Assembly: GCF_003583935.1 (NCBI RefSeq)
Contig: NZ_QYRN01000002.1
Span: 248,001-312,000, forward strand
DNA: 64,000 nt
Source: Aureimonas flava
GTDB lineage: Bacteria; Pseudomonadota; Alphaproteobacteria; Rhizobiales; Rhizobiaceae
Direction of reading: 5' to 3'
The translations under genes and the position numbers were made by a program. The notes beneath the pieces are model-generated. The model saw only the letters and a program-made list of their open reading frames with translations. It had not been told where the DNA came from and did no database searches. Positions 34,835 to 46,883 of the stretch are shown one piece after another. Positions within the stretch are counted from its first letter, which is position 1, and every line of letters starts with the position of its first letter.

Positions 34835-36322
34835 ATGAACGCGCATGTTGCCCGATCCGTCCCGCACCGGCGCTTCGCCCGCCTGTCCGACCCGCGCCTC
34901 CTGCGCGAGGACGCCTATATCGGCGGGCGCTGGGTCGCGGGCGCGGCGCGCTTCGCCGTCACCGATCCGGCCGACGGCGAGGCGCTCGCCCATGTCGCCT
35001 CGCTCGGCGCCGAGGCGGCGGACCGGGCGGTGGAGGCGGCGGCCGCCGCCTTTCCCATCTGGGCCGACCTCCCCCCGGAGGCCCGTTCGGCCGCCCTCCT
35101 GCGCTGGCACGATGCGATCCTCGCGGCGCGCGAGGACCTGGCGGCGATCATGGTGCTAGAGCAGGGCAAGCCGCTCGCCGAGGCGCGGGGCGAGATCGAC
35201 TACGCCGCCTCGTTCGTGCGCTTCTACGCCGGCGAGGCGCAGCGCGTGTGCGTGGAGGGCGTCGCCTCGCACCTGCCGGACGCCGAGATGCGGCTGACGC
35301 GCCGGCCGGTCGGCGTCGCCGGCCTCGTCACGCCCTGGAACTTCCCCTCCGCCATGCTGACGCGCAAGGCGACGGCCGCGCTCGCCGCCGGCTGCACGGC
35401 CGTGGCCCATCCCTCGTCCCACACGCCGCTCTCGGCGCTGGCGCTGGCGGTGCTCGCCGAGCGCGCGGGACTGCCGGAGGGCGTCTTCAACGTGGTCACG
35501 GGCGAGGCCGACGCGATCGTCGGCCGGCTGTGCGCCGACGCTCGCGTGCGCGCGATGAGCTTCACCGGCTCCACCGAGGTCGGACGCCTGATCGCCGCGC
35601 GGTCGGCGCCCACCATGAAGCGGCTGGTGATGGAGCTCGGCGGCCACGCGCCGCTGATCGCCTTCGCCGACGCCGGCGTCGAGCGCGCCGCCGCGATGGC
35701 GGTCGCCGCCAAGTTCGCGACCTCCGGGCAGGACTGCCTCGCCGCCAACCGCATCTATGTCGAGCGCCCCGCCTACGCGGCCTTCGCCGACGCCTTCGTG
35801 CGCCGGACGCAGGCGCTCAAGGTCGCCGCCGGCTTCGCGGAAGGCGCCGAGATCGGGCCGCTGATGCACGAGCGGGCCGTGGCCAAGTGCGCGGCGCATG
35901 TCGCCGACGCCCTGGCGCGCGGCGCGCGGCTCCTGTGCGGGGGCAGCGGCCACGCGGCCGGCCCGCTGTTCTTCCAGCCCACCGTCCTCGCCGACGTGCC
36001 GCCCGATGCCGCGATCATGCGCGAGGAGACCTTCGGCCCGGTCGCCGCGCTCGCGCCCTTCGACACCGAGGCGGAGGCGCTGGCGCGCGCCAACGACACC
36101 GAATACGGGCTGGTCGCCTATCTCTCCACCGCCGACGCGGCGCGCGCGGCGCGCATGAGCGCCCGGCTCGACTACGGCATGGTCGCCGTGAACCGCGTGA
36201 AGATCACCGGCGCGCCGGTGCCGTTCGGCGGCACCAAGCAGTCCGGCCTCGGCCGCGAGGGCTCGCGCCACGGGCTCGAGGCCTTCACCGATATCCAGTA
36301 CGTCTGCCTCGACCGCGGCTGA
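34835..36322 (+). CDS. doeC: Aspartate-semialdehyde/succinate-semialdehyde dehydrogenase-like enzyme (Ssd/DoeC)
   Basis: A 495-residue aldehyde dehydrogenase that oxidises aspartate beta-semialdehyde to aspartate in ectoine breakdown. The catalytic glutamate is Glu267 (VMELGGHAPLI) and the nucleophile Cys301 (SGQDCLAANRI). The cofactor-binding lysine usual in the family (VVKPAE) is replaced by His192 in CTAVAHPSSHTPLS, a notable change that may affect NAD/NADP use. It is followed 29 bases later by the aminotransferase. The 247-base gap before it holds a small hairpin but no gene that I can see. Confidence 0.92.
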   Translation: MNAHVARSVPHRRFARLSDPRLLREDAYIGGRWVAGAARFAVTDPADGEALAHVASLGAEAADRAVEAAAAAFPIWADLPPEARSAALLRWHDAILAAREDLAAIMVLEQGKPLAEARGEIDYAASFVRFYAGEAQRVCVEGVASHLPDAEMRLTRRPVGVAGLVTPWNFPSAMLTRKATAALAAGCTAVAHPSSHTPLSALALAVLAERAGLPEGVFNVVTGEADAIVGRLCADARVRAMSFTGSTEVGRLIAARSAPTMKRLVMELGGHAPLIAFADAGVERAAAMAVAAKFATSGQDCLAANRIYVERPAYAAFADAFVRRTQALKVAAGFAEGAEIGPLMHERAVAKCAAHVADALARGARLLCGGSGHAAGPLFFQPTVLADVPPDAAIMREETFGPVAALAPFDTEAEALARANDTEYGLVAYLSTADAARAARMSARLDYGMVAVNRVKITGAPVPFGGTKQSGLGREGSRHGLEAFTDIQYVCLDRG

Positions 36323-36351
36323 CACCCCTTTCGACGCCAAGGAGAGCCGCC

Positions 36352-37731
36352 ATGCTCGACCCGTCCAACGACCTCGTCGCCTTCGACCGGGACCACTTCT
36401 TCCACCCCTCGACCCACATGGGCATGCATGCGCGGGGCGAGACGCCGACCCGCGTCATCGCCGGTGCCCGGGGCTGCACGGTGGTGGACCGGGAGGGGCG
36501 CGAGAGCCTCGACGCCTTCGCCGGCCTCTACTGCGTCAACGTCGGCTACGGCCGGCCCGAGATCGCCGAGGCGATCGCCGAGCAGGCGCGCCGCCTGCCC
36601 TACTACCACGCCTATGTCGGCCATGGGTCGGAGCCGGCGATCCGCCTCGCCAAGATGATCGTGGACCGGGCGCCGGCGGGCATGAGCCGGGTCTATTTCG
36701 GCCTGTCGGGATCGGACGCCAACGAGACCAACATCAAGCTGGTCTGGTACGCCAACAACATCCTCGGCCGCCCGGAGAAGAAGAAGATCATCTCGCGCTG
36801 GCGCGGCTATCACGGCTCGGGCGTGATGACCGGTTCGCTGACCGGCCTCAAGCTCTTCCACGACGCCTTCGACCTGCCGCGCGCGCCGATCCTCCACACG
36901 GAGGCGCCCTACTATTTCCGCCGCGCCGACCGCACCATGGGCGAGGAGCAGTTCTCGCAGTTCTGCGCCGACCGGCTGGAGGAGACGATCCTCGCCGAGG
37001 GACCGGAGACGGTCGCCGCGATGATCGGCGAACCGGTGCTCGGAACGGGCGGCATCGTGCCCCCGCCCGCCGGCTACTGGGAGCGGATCCAGGCGGTGCT
37101 GGCGCGCTACGACGTGATGCTGATCGCCGACGAGGTGGTCACCGGCTTCGGGCGGCTCGGCACCATGTTCGGCTCGGACCACTACGGGATGCGGCCGGAC
37201 CTCGTGACCATCGCCAAGGGCCTGACCTCGGCCTATGCGCCGCTTTCGGGCACCATCGTCTCGGAGCGGCTCTGGAACGTTCTGGTGCAGGGTTCGGACA
37301 CGCTCGGGCCGATCGGCCACGGCTGGACCTATTCGGCCCATCCGCTCTGCGCGGCGGCGGGCGTCGCCAACCTCGCGCTGATCGACGAGCTGGACCTCCT
37401 GGCCAACGTGCGCACGGTCGGCGCCCATCTGCGCGCCGGCCTCGCGGCGGCGCTCGGCGACCATCCCCATGTCGGCGAGGTCCGCGGCGAGGGGCTGCTG
37501 GCGGCCGTGGAATTCGTCGCCGACCGGGACGACCGCCGCTTCTTCGAGCCGGCCGCCAAGGTCGGCCCGCGCATCTCGGCGGCGCTCCTGGCGCGCGGCG
37601 TCATCGCGCGCGCCATGCCCGAGGGCGACATCCTCGGCTTCGCGCCGCCGTTCTGCCTGACCCGCGAGGAGGCCGACACGATCGTGGAGAAGACCGCCGA
37701 GGCGGTGGCGGCGGTGACCGCCGAGCTGTGA
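36352..37731 (+). CDS. doeD: L-2,4-diaminobutyrate aminotransferase (Atf/DoeD), class III
   Basis: A 459-residue class III aminotransferase. The Schiff-base lysine is Lys289 (VTIAKGLTSAYAPLS), the Asp motif is MLIADEVVTGFGRLG, and the N-terminal part has GCTVVDREGRESLDAFAGLY. In the ectoine pathway it converts 2,4-diaminobutyrate to aspartate beta-semialdehyde, which the enzyme encoded upstream then oxidises. AAGGAGA precedes the ATG. Its gene is convergent with choV, 22 bases away. Assignment rests on family plus context; on sequence alone beta-alanine or 4-aminobutyrate transaminases look similar. Confidence 0.92.
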   Translation: MLDPSNDLVAFDRDHFFHPSTHMGMHARGETPTRVIAGARGCTVVDREGRESLDAFAGLYCVNVGYGRPEIAEAIAEQARRLPYYHAYVGHGSEPAIRLAKMIVDRAPAGMSRVYFGLSGSDANETNIKLVWYANNILGRPEKKKIISRWRGYHGSGVMTGSLTGLKLFHDAFDLPRAPILHTEAPYYFRRADRTMGEEQFSQFCADRLEETILAEGPETVAAMIGEPVLGTGGIVPPPAGYWERIQAVLARYDVMLIADEVVTGFGRLGTMFGSDHYGMRPDLVTIAKGLTSAYAPLSGTIVSERLWNVLVQGSDTLGPIGHGWTYSAHPLCAAAGVANLALIDELDLLANVRTVGAHLRAGLAAALGDHPHVGEVRGEGLLAAVEFVADRDDRRFFEPAAKVGPRISAALLARGVIARAMPEGDILGFAPPFCLTREEADTIVEKTAEAVAAVTAEL

Positions 37732-37753: not shown

Positions 37754-38950
37754 TCAGCTCGGCACGGAGCGCTGCAGGAGACCGCGATAGATTTCCTCGT
37801 CGTCGCACAGGCCGGCCAGCCGGCCGAGCTCGTCGACGAGGAGGATCGGGTGGTTGGTCTGGCGCTTCAGCGCGATCGCGGCGCGCAGCTTGAGGTCCGC
37901 GGGGGCGACGATCACGTCGCAGGGGCGGTCGAGGCGGCCTTCCACCGCGTCGGCGCGCCCGAGCGTGCCCTGCCCCTCGCCGATCCGCACGCCGAGCGGC
38001 CGGTCGGCCCCGTCGACCTGGAGCCGGATCTCGCCGTCCCGGTCGAGGAGGACGGCGTCGCCCTCGCGCCGCAGCGAGACGGCGGGGCGCATCAGCGCCG
38101 AGCCGCGCAGGACGTTGAGCGGGTTCATGTGCTGGACGAACTCGGCGACATAGGGCGTCGCCGGTGCGAGCAGGATGTCCTCCGGGCTGCCCTGCTGCAC
38201 GATGCGGGCGTCCTGCATGATCGCGATCCGGTTGCCGAGCTTCATCGCCTCGTCGAGGTCGTGGCTGACGAAGAGGATGGTCTTGCGGATCCTCGTCTGG
38301 AGCTCCAGGAGCTCGTCCTGGAGCTTGGTGCGGATCAGCGGGTCGAGCGCCGAGAAGGGCTCGTCCATCAGGAGGATGTCGGCGTCGGTGGCGAAGGCGC
38401 GGGCGAGGCCGACGCGCTGCTGCATGCCGCCCGACAGCTCGTGGGCGTAGCTGTCGGCCCATTGCGACAGGCCGACCATGGCCAGCTTCTCGTCCACGAC
38501 GCGGTTCCGCTCGGCCGCGGGCATGCCCTGTAGCTCCAGCCCGAGGCCGGCGTTCTGGCGCACCGTGCGCCAGGGCAGGAGCGCGAACTGCTGGAACACC
38601 ATGGAGACCGTGTGGGTGCGCAGGTCCCGCAGGGTGGCCGCGTCGCAGGTCGCCACGTCCACCGGCCGGCCGCGATGGCGCACCACCGTGCGCCCGCGCG
38701 AGATGGTGTTGAGGCGGTTCACGGCGCGCAGCACGGTGGACTTGCCCGAGCCCGACAGGCCCATCAGCACGCAGATCTCGCCGGGCCGCACCGCGAGGTC
38801 GATCCCTGCCGCGCCGAGCACCGCTCCGGTCTTGCGCAGGATCTCGTCGCGCGTCGCCCCCCGGTCCACCATGGCGAGCGCCTCGGCGCGGCGTTCGCCG
38901 AACACGATGTCGACGTTGCGGAACTCGACGGCGGGCAGCTCGGCGTCCAT
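37754..38950 (-). CDS. choV: Choline ABC transporter ATP-binding protein ChoV
   Basis: A 398-residue quaternary-amine type ATPase (ProV/ChoV). The family-specific N-terminal extension (FGERRAEALAMVDRGATRDEILRKTG) precedes Walker A LMGLSGSGKSTVLRAVN; the signature is LSGGMQQRVGLARAF and Walker B ILLMDEPFSALDPL. The C-terminal portion is a CBS-like regulatory region ending HPILLVDELGRLAGLCDDEE. It energises choline uptake with ChoW and ChoX. The gene sits opposite betIB-betA, which supports choline over other betaines as substrate. Confidence 0.9.
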   Translation of the reverse strand: MDAELPAVEFRNVDIVFGERRAEALAMVDRGATRDEILRKTGAVLGAAGIDLAVRPGEICVLMGLSGSGKSTVLRAVNRLNTISRGRTVVRHRGRPVDVATCDAATLRDLRTHTVSMVFQQFALLPWRTVRQNAGLGLELQGMPAAERNRVVDEKLAMVGLSQWADSYAHELSGGMQQRVGLARAFATDADILLMDEPFSALDPLIRTKLQDELLELQTRIRKTILFVSHDLDEAMKLGNRIAIMQDARIVQQGSPEDILLAPATPYVAEFVQHMNPLNVLRGSALMRPAVSLRREGDAVLLDRDGEIRLQVDGADRPLGVRIGEGQGTLGRADAVEGRLDRPCDVIVAPADLKLRAAIALKRQTNHPILLVDELGRLAGLCDDEEIYRGLLQRSVPS

Positions 38951-38952
38951 GG

Positions 38953-39807
38953 TCAGCGTCCTTTGACGGCGCGGCGCTCGGGCGCCTTGCAGATGCGGTC
39001 GAGCAGGATGGCGAGGATGACGATGGCCAGGCCCGCCTCGAAGCCCATGCCGATATTGACCGTGTTGAGGGCGCGCACCACCGGCTTGCCGAGCCCGTCG
39101 GCGCCGACCAGGGCGGCGATGACGACCATGGAGAGGCTGAGCATGATGCATTGCGTGACGCCCGCCATGATGGTCGGCAGGGCGTAGGGAAGCTCCACCT
39201 TGAACAGGAGCTGGCGCCGGGTGGCGCCGAAGGCGCTGGCCGCCTCGCGCAGGGCCGCCGGCACGGAGGTGAAGCCGAGATAGGTCAGCCGGATCGGGGC
39301 GGGCAGGGCGAAGATCACGGTGGAGATCAGGCCGGGCACGACGCCGAGGCCGAAGAGCACCAGCGTCGGGATCAGGTAGACGAAGGTCGGGATCGTCTGC
39401 ATCAGATCGAGGAAGGGCCGCATCGCGGTGTAGACGACCGGGCGGTGCGCGGCGGCGATGCCGAGCGGCACGCCGATGGCGACGCAGACGAGGGTGGCGC
39501 AGAACACCAGCGACAGCGTCTGGATCATCTCGGTCCAGTAGCCGAGATTGACCACGAGAAGCAGCGAGCCGAGCGCGAAGACGGCCAGCGCCAGCGAACG
39601 GTGCAGCAGGTAGGCGCCCACGGCGACGAGCCCGATGAAGGCGAGCGGGGGGATCGCCGCCAGCCCCGTGGTGAGCCCGCCGACCAGGAACTCCAGCACC
39701 GTCGAGATCGCGTCGAAGACCCCTTGGGCGTGTCCGGTCAGCGCTTCCACGAAGCTGCGCAGCCAGAGCCCGAGCGGGATCTTATGATCGATGAGCCATT
39801 GCGTCAT
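38953..39807 (-). CDS. choW: Choline ABC transporter permease ChoW
   Basis: A 284-residue permease of the ProW/ChoW type. The N-terminal amphipathic part (IDHKIPLGLWLRSFVEALTG) is followed by a hydrophobic core with the ATPase-contact loop REAASAFGATRRQLLFKVELPYALPTI at about residues 190-216 and a final helix before ICKAPERRAVKGR. It forms a homodimeric pore for choline. The stop lies 2 bases before the choV ATG. A hairpin at 39843 separates it from choX. Confidence 0.92.
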   Translation of the reverse strand: MTQWLIDHKIPLGLWLRSFVEALTGHAQGVFDAISTVLEFLVGGLTTGLAAIPPLAFIGLVAVGAYLLHRSLALAVFALGSLLLVVNLGYWTEMIQTLSLVFCATLVCVAIGVPLGIAAAHRPVVYTAMRPFLDLMQTIPTFVYLIPTLVLFGLGVVPGLISTVIFALPAPIRLTYLGFTSVPAALREAASAFGATRRQLLFKVELPYALPTIMAGVTQCIMLSLSMVVIAALVGADGLGKPVVRALNTVNIGMGFEAGLAIVILAILLDRICKAPERRAVKGR

Positions 39808-39888: not shown

Positions 39889-40842
39889 CTAGCGCTCCAG
39901 CGCCGTCTGGACGGCGGCGTCGGCGGGCTGGCCGTCGAAGGTGGTGACGCCGTCGAGCCAGGGCTTCCAGGCGTCGGGATGGGCGGCGAGCCACGTGCGG
40001 GCGGCCGCCTCGGGCGCCTCGCCCCCATCGAGGATCGCCCCCATGATCTCGTTCTCCATCGGCAGCGTGAAGGCGAGGTTGGCCAGGAGCTTGCCGAGGT
40101 TCGGGCAGTCGGTGGACAGCCCCTTGCGCGTCAGCGTGTAGATCGTGGCGCCCCCGTAGTTCGGCCCGAACACCTCGTCGCCCCCCGACAGGTAGGAGAG
40201 CTGGAAGTTGGCGTTCATCGGATGCGGCTCCCAGCCGAGGAACACGATCGGCTTCTCCGATCGCGTCTCGCGCGCCACCTGGGCGAGCATGCCCTGCTCG
40301 GACGATTCCACGAGCTCGAAGCCGCCGAGCCCGAACTGGTCGGCATCGATCATGGACAGGATCAGCCGGTTGCCGTCGTTGCCGGGCTCGATGCCGTAGA
40401 TCTTGCCGTCCAGTTCGTCGCGGAACTTGGCGATGTCGGCGAAGGTCTTGAGCCCCGCGTCGAACAGGTAGCGCGGCACGGCGAGCGTGTACTTGGCCCC
40501 CTCGAGGTTGGCGCGCACGACCTCGATCGAGCCGTCCGCCCGGTAGGGTGCGAGATCGGCCTCCATCGTGGGCATCCAGTTGCCCAGGAAGACGTCGATG
40601 TCGTTGTTCTTGAGCGAGGCGAAGGTCACGGGCAGCGCGAGGATGTCGGTGCGCGGCTGGTAGCCCAGCGCCTCCAGCACGGTGGAGGCCGTGGCCGTGG
40701 TCGCCGTGATGTCGGTCCAGCCGACGTCGGCGAAGCGAACCGCGCGGCACGAGGCCGCGTCGGAGGCCAGCGCCGGGGCGCAAAGGGCTGCGAATGCGAG
40801 AGCGGCGAGGCTCATGGCGGCGGCGGGGTTCGATGACACCAT
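39889..40842 (-). CDS. choX: Choline ABC transporter substrate-binding protein ChoX
   Basis: A 317-residue quaternary-amine binding protein (OpuAC/ChoX type). The signal peptide reads MVSSNPAAAMSLAALAFAAL with cleavage after PALAS. The mature protein has CRAVRFADVGWTDITATTAT, DVFLGNWMPTMEADLAPYRA and IVFLGWEPHPMNANFQLSYL; these Trp and Tyr residues match the aromatic cage that binds the trimethylammonium group. AGGAGA precedes the ATG. It is first in the choXWV operon and divergent from the betIB fusion across a 356-base region with candidate BetI sites. Confidence 0.93.
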   Translation of the reverse strand: MVSSNPAAAMSLAALAFAALCAPALASDAASCRAVRFADVGWTDITATTATASTVLEALGYQPRTDILALPVTFASLKNNDIDVFLGNWMPTMEADLAPYRADGSIEVVRANLEGAKYTLAVPRYLFDAGLKTFADIAKFRDELDGKIYGIEPGNDGNRLILSMIDADQFGLGGFELVESSEQGMLAQVARETRSEKPIVFLGWEPHPMNANFQLSYLSGGDEVFGPNYGGATIYTLTRKGLSTDCPNLGKLLANLAFTLPMENEIMGAILDGGEAPEAAARTWLAAHPDAWKPWLDGVTTFDGQPADAAVQTALER

Positions 40843-40973
40843 TCGGGTTCTCCTGCGATGGACAAGCCTTGGCCTCGGACGGCGGCGAAAACAAGCGGGG
40901 CGGCCCAATGTTCGTTCGGAAAAATCGAACCGACACCCCTTATTGAGGACGGGCCGGACGCATCTGTCAAGCG

Positions 40974-40997
40974 AGCATTGAACGATCGTTCAATGCT
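40974..40997. promoter_or_regulatory. Candidate BetI operator 1 (24-base perfect palindrome)
   Basis: Each half reads AGCATTGAACGA, giving a perfect 24-base dyad with TTGA and TCAA arms 8 bases apart. It lies 132 bases upstream of choX and 202 bases upstream of betIB. As I recall, the dyad described for enterobacterial and Vibrio BetI has similar TTGA/TCAA arms. It is adjacent to the palindrome TTGTATACAA. Confidence 0.6.
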
Positions 40998-41142
40998 TTG
41001 TATACAAGGCGCATCGACACCGGATGAAATGAGAAATTCCGGTAGCCTGCAAACTTATGCTTGTTCGTCTTTGCGCAGCGACATGCGCTATTGGAGCCGG
41101 AACGCGGAAGAATGGGGATTGCGTCGGATCGCGTTTCGTTCG

Positions 41143-41160
41143 ATTGAATGGACGATCAAC
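41143..41160. promoter_or_regulatory. Candidate BetI operator 2
   Basis: ATTGAATGGACGATCAAC has the same TTGA-N8-TCAA layout as operator 1 and lies 39 bases before the betIB start, close to where the promoter should be. Its centre is 166 bases from that of operator 1. BetI binding is inferred from layout and position. Confidence 0.5.
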
Positions 41161-41198
41161 GAATGCACCCCGCCTGCTTTGCGTCGGAGACCTGATCC

Positions 41199-43310
41199 AT
41201 GGGCCGTCCCCACACCGCCCCCCGTTTCGGCCTGGAGGACCAGCGCCGCCGCCAGCTGATCGAGGCGACGATCGAGGCGCTCGCCGATGTCGGCTTCGCC
41301 GCCGCGAGCCTGTCGGAGATCGCCGGGCGCGCGGGCGTCGCCCCGTCGCTCGTGTCCCACTATTTCGGCGACAAGGACGGCCTCCTGGAGGCGACGCTGC
41401 GCCACCTGGCGGCGCGCGTCTCGGACGGCACGCGCTGGCGCCTCCGGCGCGCCGAGGGCGCGCGCGAGCGGCTCCAGTGCGTGATCGACGCCAACCTCGC
41501 GCCCGAGGAATTCGACGGGCGCACCGGCTCCGTCTGGCTGGCCTTCTGGGGGCAGGTGCTCCATTCGGCGCGGCTGAAGCGCGTGCAGCGGGTCTACCAG
41601 CAGCGCATGCTTTCCAACCTGCGCCACGACCTGCGCGGCCTGGTGGCGGACGAGGACGTGGGCCGCGTCGCCGTGGCCGTGGCGGCGGTGATCGACGGGC
41701 TGTGGCTGCGCTCCTCGCTGTCGGACGCGGGCGAGACCGACAGCGCGGCGGCCTGCGCGCTCGCCACGAGCTTCGCCGACGCGCAGATCGCCGCGGCGGC
41801 GCCCCGTCGCGAGGGCGCCCCGCCCGCAAGGCCGGCGCGCGCGCCCGGCGTTGCGATCCTCACCAGCCATGTCGGCGGCGCCTACCTGCCGCTGCGCGAG
41901 GGTGCCGAGACCCTGGCCACCATCGACCCGGCGACGGGCGAGACCCTGGCCGAGATCGCGGTCGCGGACGAGCGCGAGGTGGACGCGGCGGTCGCGCAGG
42001 CGCGCGAGGCGCAACGTGCCTGGGGCGCGATGACCGGGGCCGAGCGCGGGCGCGTCCTCCACCGCGTGGCCGCGCGGCTGCGCGAGCGCAACCGGGAGCT
42101 GGCGCTCCTGGAGACCCGCGACACGGGCAAGCCGATCGCGGAGACGGAGGCCGTCGACATCCTGTCGGGCGCCGACTGCATCGAGTATTTCGCGGGGCTG
42201 GCGGCCGGCATCGCGGGCGAGCACGTCGACCTCGGGCCCGACGCCTTCGGCTACGTGCGGCGCGAGCCACTCGGCGTCGTGGCCGGGATCGGCGCCTGGA
42301 ACTATCCGATCCAGATCGCCTGCTGGAAGGCGGCGCCCGCGCTGGCGGCGGGCAACAGCTTCGTGTTCAAGCCGGCCGAGCTGACGCCGCTCACCGCCCT
42401 GAAGCTCGCCGAGATCATGACGGAGTGCGGCGTGCCGCCCGGCGTCTTCAACGTGGTGCAGGGCGACGGGCGCACGGGGCGCCTCCTGTCGCGCCATCCC
42501 GGCATCGCGAAGATTTCGCTCACCGGCGAGGTCGGCACCGGCAAGAAGGTGATGGCCGACGCCGCGTCCACGCTGAAGCAGGTGACGCTGGAGCTCGGCG
42601 GCAAGTCGCCGCTGATCGTCTTCCCCGACGCCGACCTCGACGACGCGGTGGGCGGCGCGATGCTCGCCAACTTCTACTCGGCCGGCGAGGTCTGCTCCAA
42701 CGGCACGCGCGTCTTCGTGCACGAGGACGTGCGCGAGGCCTTCCTGGCCAAGCTGGCGGCGCGCACGCGGGACATGGTGGTGGGCGATCCGACGGACCCG
42801 GCGACGCAGGTCGGCGCCCTGATCTCCGAGGCGCACATGGCCAAGGTCCTGTCCTATGTCGAGGAGGGGCGTCGCGGCGGCGCCCGGCTCCTGTGCGGCG
42901 GCGACCGCGTCACCGCCGGCGCGCTCGGCCGCGGCTTCTTCGTGGAGCCCGCGATCTTCGACGCCTGCACGGACGACATGCGGATCGTGCGCGAGGAGAT
43001 CTTCGGCCCGGTGATGACCGTGCTCCCGTTCCGCGACGAGGACGAGGTGGTGGGGCGCGCCAACGCCACGCGCTTCGGCCTGGCCGCCGGCGTCTTCACC
43101 CGCGACCTCGCGCGCGCCCACCGCGTGGTGGCGCGGCTGGAGGCCGGCACGACCTGGATCAACACCTACAACATCACGCCGATCGAGCTGCCCTTCGGCG
43201 GCGCCAAGGAATCGGGCCTCGGCCGCGAGAACGGGCGGGCCGCCCTTCTCGCCCACACGCAGGCCAAGAGCGTCTACGTGAACCTCGGGCGCGTCGACGC
43301 GCCCTACTGA
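41199..43310 (+). CDS. betI-betB: BetI-BetB fusion: choline-responsive repressor joined to betaine aldehyde dehydrogenase
   Basis: One open frame of 703 residues. Residues about 14-200 are a full BetI-type TetR repressor ([13 protein letters not shown], then [16 protein letters not shown], later [11 protein letters not shown] and [15 protein letters not shown]). An Ala/Pro/Arg linker (about 201-217) leads into a complete betaine aldehyde dehydrogenase (218-703): Asn368 (GAWNYPIQ), Lys391 (FVFKPAEL), Glu465 (LELGGKSP), Cys499 (GEVCSNGTR). The linker has no in-frame stop and no ATG, GTG or TTG codon, and its codon usage is normal, so BetB cannot easily be made alone. It converts betaine aldehyde to glycine betaine with NAD. 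betI and betB are separate genes in the systems I know. betA follows after 15 bases. Confidence 0.92.
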
Positions 43311-43325: not shown

Positions 43326-44996
43326 ATGGAGACCGAAAGCTTCGACTACGTGATCGTCGGTGCCGGATCGGCGGGCTGCGTGCTGGCCAACCGGCTCACC
43401 GAGGACGGCAGGAGCACCGTTCTGGTGCTGGAATTCGGCGGCTCGGACCGCTCGATGCTGATCCAGATGCCGAGCGCGCTGTCGATCCCGATGAACATGC
43501 GCAAGTACAACTGGGGCTACGAGTCCGAGCCCGAGCCGCATCTGGGCGGGCGGCGCATGAACTGCCCGCGCGGCAAGGTGCTGGGCGGCTCCTCCTCGAT
43601 CAACGGCATGGTCTACGTGCGCGGCGCCCCGGCCGATTTCGACCGCTGGGAAAGCCAGGGCGCCACCGGCTGGGGCTACCCGGACGTCCTGCCCTACTTC
43701 CGCAAGGCCGAGCACCGGCGGGCCGGGGGCGACCCCTACCGGGGCGAGGGCGGCGCGCTGCACACGACCTACGGCACGCTCGCCAACCCGCTCTACGACG
43801 CCTTCGTGCACGCGGCGGCCGAAGCCGGCCACGCGCTCAACGAGGACATCAACGGCGCCACGCAGGAGGGCTTCGGCCGAATGGACATGACCGTCCACAA
43901 CGGCCGGCGCTGGTCCACCGCCAACGCCTATCTGAAGCCGGCGCTGGGGCGGCCCAACCTCCAGGTCGTCACCCATGCGCTGGTGGAGCGCGTCCTGTTC
44001 GAGGGACAGGCCGCCGCGGGCGTCGCCTATCGCGTCGGCGACGCGCCGCGCCGGGCGCTGGCGCGGCGCGAGGTGATCCTCGCCGCCGGCTCGATCAACT
44101 CGCCCAAGCTCCTGAAGCTGTCGGGCGTCGGGCCCGGCGCCGAACTCCGGGACCATGGGATCGACGTGGTCGCCGACCGGGCGGGCGTCGGCGAGAACCT
44201 GCAGGACCACCTGGAATTCTACTTCCAGGTCGCCTGCCGCGAGCCGATCACGCTGTTCTCCGCCATGTCGCCCTTCGCCAGGGGCTCGATCGGCGCGCGC
44301 TGGCTGCTGACCAAGCGGGGTCTGGGCGCCACCAACCATTTCGAGAGCTGCGGCTTCATCCGCTCGCGCCCGGACGTCGAGCACGCCGACATCCAGTACC
44401 ATTTCCTGCCGCTCGCCGTGACCTACGACGGGCGCGGGCTCGCCTCCGAGCACGGGTTCCAGGCCCATGTCGGGCCGATGCGCTCCAAGTCGCGCGGCCG
44501 CGTGCGCCTCGCCTCGGCCGATCCGGCCGCCCCGCCGCGCATCCTGTTCAACTACATGAGCCACCCAGACGACTGGGCGGAGATGCGCGCCTGCGTGCGC
44601 CTGACCCGGCAGATCTTCGCGCAGCCCTCGTTCGACCGCTATCGCGGCCGCGAGATCCAGCCGGGCGAGGCGGTGCAGAGCGACGAGGAGATCGACCGCT
44701 TCGTCGCCCGGCACGCGGAAAGCGCCTACCACCCGTCCTGCACCTGCCGCATGGGCGCGGCCGACGATCCGCTGGCGGTGGTGGACCCGCAGGCGCGCGT
44801 CATCGGCGCCGGGCGGCTGCGGGTGGTGGACTCCTCGATCATGCCCTCGATCACCACGGGCAACCTCAACGCGCCCACGATCATGATCGCCGAGAAGGCC
44901 TCCGACATCATCCGGGGGCGCGACGCGCTGGCGCGCGCCGAGGTGCCCTACGAGCGCGTGGCCTTCCTGCCGATGCCCGCGCAAGGGGCGCTCTGA
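43326..44996 (+). CDS. betA: Choline dehydrogenase BetA
   Basis: A 556-residue GMC flavoenzyme of standard BetA length. The FAD motif is [20 protein letters not shown] (residues 6-25), GMC signature 1 is [19 protein letters not shown], and signature 2 is [19 protein letters not shown]. The active-site histidine is in [13 protein letters not shown], and the C-terminal [17 protein letters not shown] is intact. It oxidises choline to betaine aldehyde at the membrane and feeds electrons to the respiratory chain. It follows the BetI-BetB fusion by 15 bases, as betA follows betB in betIBA operons. Confidence 0.95.
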
Positions 44997-45152: not shown

Positions 45153-46670
45153 TCAGCGGGACAGAAGCGCCCGGAAGTCCTGGTCCAGCCGCTCCAGCGC
45201 GGCGTCGACATGGCCGCGCCGATCGGCGATCCAGCGGTCCTGCGCGTCCAGCTTCTCGCCCGCCTCGGCGAGCATGCGCGTCACCTCCGCCGGCTGCGGT
45301 CCGCCGGCGGTGACGCGGCTGCGCACGATGGCGGCCGGGTCCAGCGCCGCGCGGAACTCCGCCTCGCCGAGGGGCAGCACCGGGGGAAAGTCGGTGCCCG
45401 CCACCGTTTCGGCATAGATGCGCTGCGCCTCGGCATAGGGGAAGTCGAGCGGCCCGATGCCCCGGGCGCGCGCATAGGTGACGATCTCGGAGGCGACGTG
45501 GTGCCCCTCCCGGAACGGCAGCCCGTGCTCGCGCATCAGCCTGTCGGCGATCTCCTGGGAGGCCGTCCAGTCGCCGTTCAGTTCCTCCAGCGCCCGGCGC
45601 GGATCGACCACCAGCCCCTTGAGCACCCGGTCCAGCCCGGCCAGCGCCTTCACGCCCGCCGCGATCACGGCCGAGTTGGCCTCGACGTCCTTCGGGTCGC
45701 TCATGCCGGGCGTGATGTTGTGCGCCTGGATCATCGGTCCGAGCGCCAGGGTGATGGCGGTGGAGGCGTCGCTGCGGGTCGAGTTGAGAAGGCCCGGATT
45801 GCGCTTCTGCGGCATGGCGGAGGAGACGTAGGTGTTGCCGCCGCCCTCCTCCAGGAGGATCCACGGGCGGCTCTGGGCGTACTGCGTCATCACGTCCTCG
45901 ATGAAGTGCCCGGTATGGAGCGCGATCGAGGTGACCACCGCGCCGACCTCGACGGGATGCTCCATGGAGGAGATCTGCGAGGCGTCGTAGGCGTTGTCGA
46001 CCACGCCCGCGAAGCCGAGATAGTCGGCCATGCGCGCGCGGTCGAGCGGCCAGCCGGTTCCGTTCAGCACGGTGGTGCCCATGGCCGAGCGGTCGATCCG
46101 GCCGTAGGCCTCGCGGATCCGCTGCGCGTCCCGCTCGAAGCCGGCGGCATGGCCCAGGAGATAGTGGGCGTAGCTGTTGGGCTGCGCCGCGACGCCGTTG
46201 GTGTAGTTCGGGACGATCGTCTCGCGATGGTCGGCGGCGAGCGCCACCAGCGTGCGCGCCGTGGCGTTCAGCCGGTCGGCGAGCCGCAGCAGGTCGTCGC
46301 GCAGGATCGCGGCCCGATAGGTCGCGTGCATGTCCTGGCTCGATCGGCCGGCATGCAGGAGCGTGACCTCCACCCCGCCGGCCTCGATCAGCAGCGGCTC
46401 GAAGCTGATCACCGTGGACGGGCGCTTGGCGTCCGGCCGGTCGCCGTCGCGGATCACCCGGTCGAGCGCGGCGGCGATGCCCGGCACCTTGTCGGCCGGC
46501 AAGAGGCCCTCGTCGGCGTTGATCACCGCCGTCGCCTTGTTGATCTCCCCGAGCCAGAAGAATTCGTCGCGCCCCGCCTCGGCGGCGGCGGCGGCCCCCG
46601 ACAGCATCAGCGCGCCGGCAAGAACGCCCCAGCCCGCGAACGGGGCGAGGCGGCCGTGAATCGCAGTCAT
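45153..46670 (-). CDS. Exported argininosuccinate-lyase-like protein (aspartase/fumarase superfamily)
   Basis: A 505-residue protein of the argininosuccinate lyase family. The superfamily catalytic loop is intact: TYVSSAMPQKRNPGLLNSTR at about residues 280-299, with the mobile-loop Ser and the Lys and Asn of the MPxKxN signature. Unlike cytoplasmic ArgH it starts with a typical signal peptide (MTAIHGRLAPFAGWGVLAGA, then an Ala-rich cleavage zone before EAGRDEF). GGAGGA lies 10 bases before the ATG. It would eliminate an N-substituted succinate or similar in the periplasm; the substrate is unknown. It stands alone, divergent from an aldose epimerase. ArgH function is unlikely because the enzyme appears exported. 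Confidence 0.82.
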   Translation of the reverse strand: MTAIHGRLAPFAGWGVLAGALMLSGAAAAAEAGRDEFFWLGEINKATAVINADEGLLPADKVPGIAAALDRVIRDGDRPDAKRPSTVISFEPLLIEAGGVEVTLLHAGRSSQDMHATYRAAILRDDLLRLADRLNATARTLVALAADHRETIVPNYTNGVAAQPNSYAHYLLGHAAGFERDAQRIREAYGRIDRSAMGTTVLNGTGWPLDRARMADYLGFAGVVDNAYDASQISSMEHPVEVGAVVTSIALHTGHFIEDVMTQYAQSRPWILLEEGGGNTYVSSAMPQKRNPGLLNSTRSDASTAITLALGPMIQAHNITPGMSDPKDVEANSAVIAAGVKALAGLDRVLKGLVVDPRRALEELNGDWTASQEIADRLMREHGLPFREGHHVASEIVTYARARGIGPLDFPYAEAQRIYAETVAGTDFPPVLPLGEAEFRAALDPAAIVRSRVTAGGPQPAEVTRMLAEAGEKLDAQDRWIADRRGHVDAALERLDQDFRALLSR

Positions 46671-46883
46671 GCGGATGGTCTCCTCCCTGTTGGGCCGGGC
46701 GCCGCGTCCGGCGGGGCGCGCCGGTCCCGATCGGCACCTTGCGGCGCCGGCCGCGATCCTAGACGGGCCGCGCGTTGATAAGCAAATCATACGAATCGAC
46801 GCGCTCGCCGCGCGAGCCCGAAGAGCGCGCTGTCATCGGCGCCCAACTTGCCGTAGTCGGAACGCCGGACAAGGAGTGCGCGC

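Follow-up and report, generated by a model that had tools for sequence, protein, structure and literature searches.

A BetI repressor and BetB betaine aldehyde dehydrogenase fused in one Aureimonas flava protein, with a possible role for the enzyme half as a bridge between two operators

A gene of Aureimonas flava joins the repressor BetI to the betaine aldehyde dehydrogenase BetB in one open frame. We infer that it encodes a single bifunctional protein, a choline-released BetI repressor and a working betaine aldehyde dehydrogenase. Beyond this, it is nearly an even call whether the active enzyme also serves, through its oligomer, to link BetI dimers across two operators in the manner of LacI. 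The window analysed here is a stretch of 64,000 nucleotides, and all positions refer to it. In betIBA operons, betI and betB are usually two genes. The fusion gene and its parts are as follows.

41199-43310, plus strand: betI-betB fusion, open over 703 codons in one frame.
41199-41798, plus strand: BetI half, residues 1-200, with TetR_N, a BetI-type C-terminal domain and the conserved columns.
41799-41861, plus strand: linker, residues 201-221, fast-evolving and without an in-frame start codon.
41862-43310, plus strand: BetB half, residues 222-703 and stop, a betaine aldehyde dehydrogenase with Asn368, Lys391, Glu465 and Cys499.

The sequence-only reading had described BetI and BetB within one 703-residue protein, and Pfam and NCBIfam domains in the single open frame confirmed this. 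TetR_N (PF00440) was matched at residues 20-65, TetR_C_6 (PF13977, the BetI-type C-terminal domain) at 88-197 and Aldedh at 237-692; PF00440 and PF13977 both exceeded their gathering scores. At residues 223-703 the NCBIfam betaine-aldehyde dehydrogenase model PRK13252 scored 765 bits (cut-off 593), and the TIGR01804 BADH score was slightly below its cut-off (658.3 versus 668.6). The catalytic residues Asn368, Lys391, Glu465 and Cys499, earlier called intact, are indeed so, and are invariant across 44 aligned intact fusions. The linker was also found as described, with no stop and no in-frame ATG, GTG or TTG in the stretch examined. The closest other aldehyde dehydrogenase in the A. flava genome is 42% identical to that of the fusion, and the other TetR matches in this genome are weak. 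AlphaFold monomer models of the A. flava fusion and of L170, a relative with a damaged enzyme half, gave pTM values of 0.65 and 0.60, and the final ~45 residues of the A. flava model were of low confidence.

The fusion occupies the betI and betB position of a betIBA operon, beside choline transporter genes.

43326-44996, plus strand: betA, choline dehydrogenase, downstream of the fusion (TIGR01810 and PRK02106 above cut-off).
39889-40908, minus strand: choX, choline-binding protein, divergent from the fusion (TIGR03414 above cut-off).
38953-39807, minus strand: choW, choline transporter permease (TIGR03416 above cut-off).
37754-38950, minus strand: choV, choline transporter ATPase (TIGR03415 above cut-off).

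Next to choV lie a succinate-semialdehyde-dehydrogenase-like gene and a class III aminotransferase gene (34835-37731). Past betA, a long minus-strand frame (45153-46790) gave no NCBIfam match at E <= 1e-60. A scan of 40850-41250 detected no promoters or terminators.

A recent frameshift merger had been thought unlikely, and the distribution of the fusion bears this out: a full-length, stop-free match is present in 20 of 21 Aureimonas genomes, and the fusion recurs in other families. Relatives with the TetR_N and Aldedh architecture, whose search had been proposed, were found and placed on trees. Fused rows came from seven named alphaproteobacterial families (Aurantimonadaceae, Afifellaceae, Xanthobacteraceae, Pleomorphomonadaceae, Kaistiaceae, Acetobacteraceae and Sphingomonadaceae) and from MAGs, one labelled gammaproteobacterial. 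With seven named families and one origin on the BetI tree, the fusion is therefore no sequencing error; its conservation across the genus and its relatives rules out both an assembly error and a recent frameshift merger.

Named relatives with a one-frame fusion include Aureimonas, Faunimonas, Ancylobacter, Methylobrevis, Bauldia, Novosphingobium and Gluconacetobacter. The 80 loci listed in the named-genome scan comprised 22 one-frame fusions, 51 separate betI/betB loci and 7 without BetI upstream; the 22 include one that runs off its contig (L067) and two MAG loci (L088 and L106) in which BetI and BetB are joined in frame and the enzyme half is broken further on, through an assembly fault or in reality. 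Wider samples gave the fusion in at least 16 of 397 genomes of the order at E <= 1e-200 (the enzyme half being damaged in two), in 3 of 385 genomes of the class at E <= 1e-150, and in 33 of 296 genomes and 3 of 47 genera of one family. The sole Aureimonas genome of the 21 without the fusion, G018, carries another, separate BetB beside BetA (L147, 5993-9197) with no BetI match near them; in the BetB tree this BetB clusters with gammaproteobacterial BetBs, as if replaced by transfer. Two Komagataeibacter saccharivorans plasmids (NZ_CP023037.1 and NZ_CP036405.1) appear fused, the tblastn match being one unbroken piece. The only gene listed under it, in a gene table that is incomplete, is betB, and a regulator half is easily overlooked in such records.

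A quick BetI tree (101 rows) placed all 53 fused rows together on one side of a branch (SH-aLRT 95), and their neighbours were separate betI-betB pairs from two families of the same order. In the BetB tree (130 rows), the fused label required 5 changes and several unfused BetBs nested within the fused rows; the single origin therefore rests on the BetI tree. These nested BetBs may represent later losses, exchanges or cut contigs; L074, L089 and L134, among others, are unfused BetBs of this kind with no nearby BetI. We favour one fusion event followed by loss and transfer, as a reading rather than proof. Among the Sphingomonadaceae fusions, the BetI half is fast-evolving in L051, L054, L061 and L106, and that of L054 matched the BetI-type C-terminal domain only in part.

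Comparison of intact pairs indicated purifying selection on both halves and far faster change in the linker, whose length and sequence vary freely among fusions. Of 32 BetI columns strongly conserved in fused and separate proteins, 31 hold the same residue in both, including Trp113, Phe116, Trp117, Asp166 and Trp169. The available text of PMC12442346 gives choline as the signal for separate BetIs. Because 31 of the 32 shared columns agree, choline sensing by the BetI half itself would be a simpler reading than a switch located in the enzyme half.

Two predicted operators lie between choX and the fusion.

40977-40994, no strand assigned: predicted operator 1, ATTGAACGATCGTTCAAT, the core of a perfect 24-bp palindrome, on the choX side.
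41143-41160, no strand assigned: predicted operator 2, ATTGAATGGACGATCAAC, an imperfect palindrome on the fusion side, 166 bp from operator 1.

Sites of the ATTGAAY-N4-RTTCAAT type were searched for, with at most 2 mismatches over the two half-sites and a spacer of 0-8. A predicted operator was present upstream in 58 of 59 fused loci (4% in shuffled sequence) and in 75 of 76 separate-gene loci (14% in shuffled sequence). The predicted sites resemble the BetI box ATTGACG*CGTCAAT given in the available text of PMC12442346. At loci with divergent choX, 33 of 48 fused loci had at least two sites (6-base spacer, at most 2 mismatches), as did 4 of 32 separate-gene loci, a comparison that ignores descent. 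In the separate-gene family closest to the fusions, two operators were present in 5 of 5 genomes examined. Two operators and the fusion are confounded by descent, because on our reading the fusion arose once.

We propose that the BetI half would bind the two predicted operators between the divergent choXWV and betIB-betA genes, and that an oligomer of the enzyme half would join two BetI dimers into one particle, because BetB-type enzymes form dimers or tetramers. One such particle could hold both operators simultaneously, forming a LacI-like bridge that would shut choline uptake and oxidation together, and choline binding to BetI would release the DNA. DNA binding, choline response, oligomer, bridging and enzyme activity are here all deduced from sequence. 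Bridging by the enzyme half would explain two observations, the near whole-turn spacing of the operators and an enzyme half that stays open after its catalytic residues are gone.

Operator spacings at fused loci fell into classes such as 86-87, 97, 109-111, 152-154, 164-167, 176-180 and 187-189 bp, with a few outside them. The best-fitting period was ~11.3 bp, in a pattern first seen post hoc. The significance of phasing varied with clustering: p<3e-4 with 34 clusters, 0.0027 with 22 and 0.22 with 15 (strict); 8 clusters of the strongest sites gave p=0.019. Raw spacings showed no phasing at 10.5 bp (R=0.06). A pre-registered validation on 29 new loci, at the cut fixed beforehand, left just 2 new clusters (p=0.20), and looser cuts of these loci gave p=0.117 (n=6 clusters) and p<0.001 (n=14 clusters).

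A tree-based test, devised after the validation, used pairs with non-overlapping paths and spacings at least 5.6 bp apart. The 16 tree-independent pairs differed by 10 (4 pairs), 11 (2), 12 (6), 13, 14, 45 and 52 bp, and the V-test on this post hoc pattern gave p=0.0003 for a period of 10.5 bp and <1e-4 for one of 11.2 bp, an outcome unchanged by leaving out four duplicate loci. A single event may underlie several of the Ancylobacter pairs; with this group thinned to leave n=10 pairs, p was 0.0018 (10.5 bp) and 0.0007 (11.2 bp). Operator-to-gene distances showed no phasing in the same test (p=0.74-0.995). The five two-operator genomes of the closest separate-gene family have spacings of 175, 196, 269, 269 and 339 bp, only 4 of them distinct, with R=0.61 and p=0.23 at 10.5 bp, R=0.23 at 11.2 and R=0.06 at 11.3. 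For lac repressor loops in vivo, the available text of PMC1762422 reports fitted repeats of 11.08-11.60 bp, a range that includes the ~11.3 bp period of the fused loci, and that of PMC8501960 a repeat of about 11 bp. The earlier suggestion that the fusion could bridge its two operators is favoured by the near whole-turn spacing, which falls short of proving it.

Relatives with a damaged enzyme half bear on the second observation. They belong to one genus of the same order, which we take to be perhaps Kaistia or a near relative, solely from Bauldia matching the same family. Of its 14 genomes, G683, G821 and G837 have the fusion intact, and in G760, G832 and G809 its enzyme half is damaged; 8 have no BetI match, one because the contig ends. 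A fourth damaged half, in G836, is cut by the contig end, so that the contig shows neither a BetI half nor operators. Asn368, Cys499 and residues 445-448 of the NAD motif are lost in all four damaged halves (L170, L174, L194 and L195). Lys391 is lost in three and kept in L170, and Glu465 is lost in two, an aligned Glu remaining in L170 and L195. The four have substitutions in common at several invariant sites, which suggests that they trace to one ancestral change.

All four damaged halves are nevertheless open. Their dN/dS values are 0.39-0.59 with upper limits of 0.50-0.75, all <1; they are about 6-8 times that of an intact pair (0.07), and only slightly more constrained than the pooled linker (0.64). 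Of 228 family-invariant residues examined, all four keep 72 and all four lack 50. A neutral star simulation, in which shared history is disregarded, put the joint probability of four stop-free halves at ~0.0015. In the damaged fusions, the BetI halves are 81-89% identical to that of the intact L151, and the two predicted operators are 109-111 bp apart, as compared with 109-110 bp in intact fusions of the same genus; BetI half and operators persist in the three damaged genomes where the stretch is visible. The L170 model resembles BetB structures with a target-normalised TM of up to 0.92, a result biased by the intact enzymes in its alignment. Oligomerisation segments are not clearly spared in the damaged halves, L194 retaining 9 of 24 and 4 of 18 residues.

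A more speculative reading, which we hold to be less likely than not, is that BetB has become an oligomerisation scaffold of its own repressor and that in this genus it would have been kept as a looping scaffold after the loss of its catalytic residues. A serious competitor, to which we give rather less than even weight, is that the damaged halves are decaying after the loss of betA, and are kept by chance or because a broken tail would harm BetI. This idea bears on the damaged-half relatives alone, and any account of the intact fusion can stand beside it. betA was not found beside G760, G832 or G809, nor beside the intact fusion of G837 (flank of 1.5 kb for the last two), and the top betA-like match located elsewhere in each of these four has 45-48% identity, as against 70-71% in G683 and G821. 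The raised dN/dS and the eight genomes of the genus without a BetI match, one of them owing to a contig end, likewise fit decay. It is opposed by the open frames with their low joint probability under the neutral simulation, by upper limits of dN/dS all below 1, and by the 72 residues kept throughout. Among the matches listed for G760 and G832, no other BetB-like match exceeded 42%. The G837 fusion itself (L193), intact and with no betA in its 1.5-kb flank, is perhaps a step preceding the loss of catalytic residues.

For the intact fusion, the main rival to bridging is dose coupling, in which one repressor is made per enzyme subunit, giving autoregulation and quick shut-off, with the halves independent and no bridging; we regard it as a real possibility, though less probable than not. 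In its favour, both halves retain the signature residues of their families and the linker is free to vary. Additionally, the BetI stop lies 14-166 nt ahead of the first aligned BetB codon in the closest separate-gene relatives, where a small deletion or frame change could join the two. Dose coupling does not, however, predict near whole-turn operator spacing or an enzyme half left open after losing its catalytic residues, both of which enzyme-half bridging would explain.

PutA is a precedent for a repressor joined to pathway enzymes in one chain, and the sequence-only reading had raised PutA-like control, with betaine aldehyde or the NAD state of the enzyme half governing DNA binding by BetI. 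The likeness lies in a repressor and pathway enzyme sharing one chain, and we found no positive support for the switch, which we consider very improbable. The BetI half keeps the columns common to separate BetIs, which respond to choline (available text of PMC12442346), and the linker is not conserved. Moreover, Asn368, Cys499 and the NAD motif are gone in four genomes, yet the three of these whose stretch is visible still have BetI and the operators, and hence BetI can be kept there without NAD binding or turnover.

Highly unlikely, too, is a chain cut or restarted within the linker to give separate BetI and BetB in the cell: the fast-evolving linker is a plausible cleavage site and in some relatives an in-frame start codon occurs within or close to it, in a few of them behind an SD-like sequence, but the frame stayed fused throughout the clade, and an internal start in the linker was rejected since none is conserved among relatives and none occurs in the stretch examined of the A. 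flava protein and several others.

No report of a BetI-BetB fusion was found in the literature searched, a search outside which most subscription journals lie. The fusions treated in the available text of PMC7824335 are fused methyltransferases, and that of PMC9781493 names the two enzymes in an Aureimonas, with 'BetI' absent from this text. As far as could be seen, the BetI-BetB pairing, its spread, the operator spacing and the damaged-enzyme relatives are undescribed; the fusion of a repressor and an enzyme as such is of a known kind. To our knowledge, few repressors are naturally fused to an enzyme of the pathway they control; PutA, BirA and NadR are examples. The BetI-BetB fusion is conserved across several families and brings natural comparisons with it: separate adjacent genes in its nearest relatives, spacing steps of about one turn, and relatives without the catalytic residues. 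It thereby makes testable whether an enzyme oligomer can act as the bridge of a DNA loop.

The BetI half has in common with the BetI of betIBA operons its domain signature, conserved columns, ATTGAA..TTCAAT palindromic operator and place beside betB and betA. The latter ends at its own stop, whereas the fused BetI runs on into BetB, usually with two operators at near whole-turn spacing. The enzyme half is 58-60% identical to BetB enzymes of known structure (6wsa, 2wme and 3r31) in the fold comparison, with catalytic residues intact; unlike them, it bears a complete N-terminal repressor, and four relatives have lost the catalytic residues. As in PutA, a DNA-binding repressor shares one chain with its pathway enzymology, which in PutA includes an aldehyde dehydrogenase; the DNA-binding fold differs, the fusion has no flavin domain, and a redox switch is unsupported for it. 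The likeness to LacI lies in two operators roughly 90-190 bp apart and, on the pattern seen post hoc, in spacing steps near 11 bp (available text of PMC1762422 and PMC8501960). LacI joins its dimers by a dedicated tetramerisation segment, whereas in the fusion the joining part would be the enzyme.
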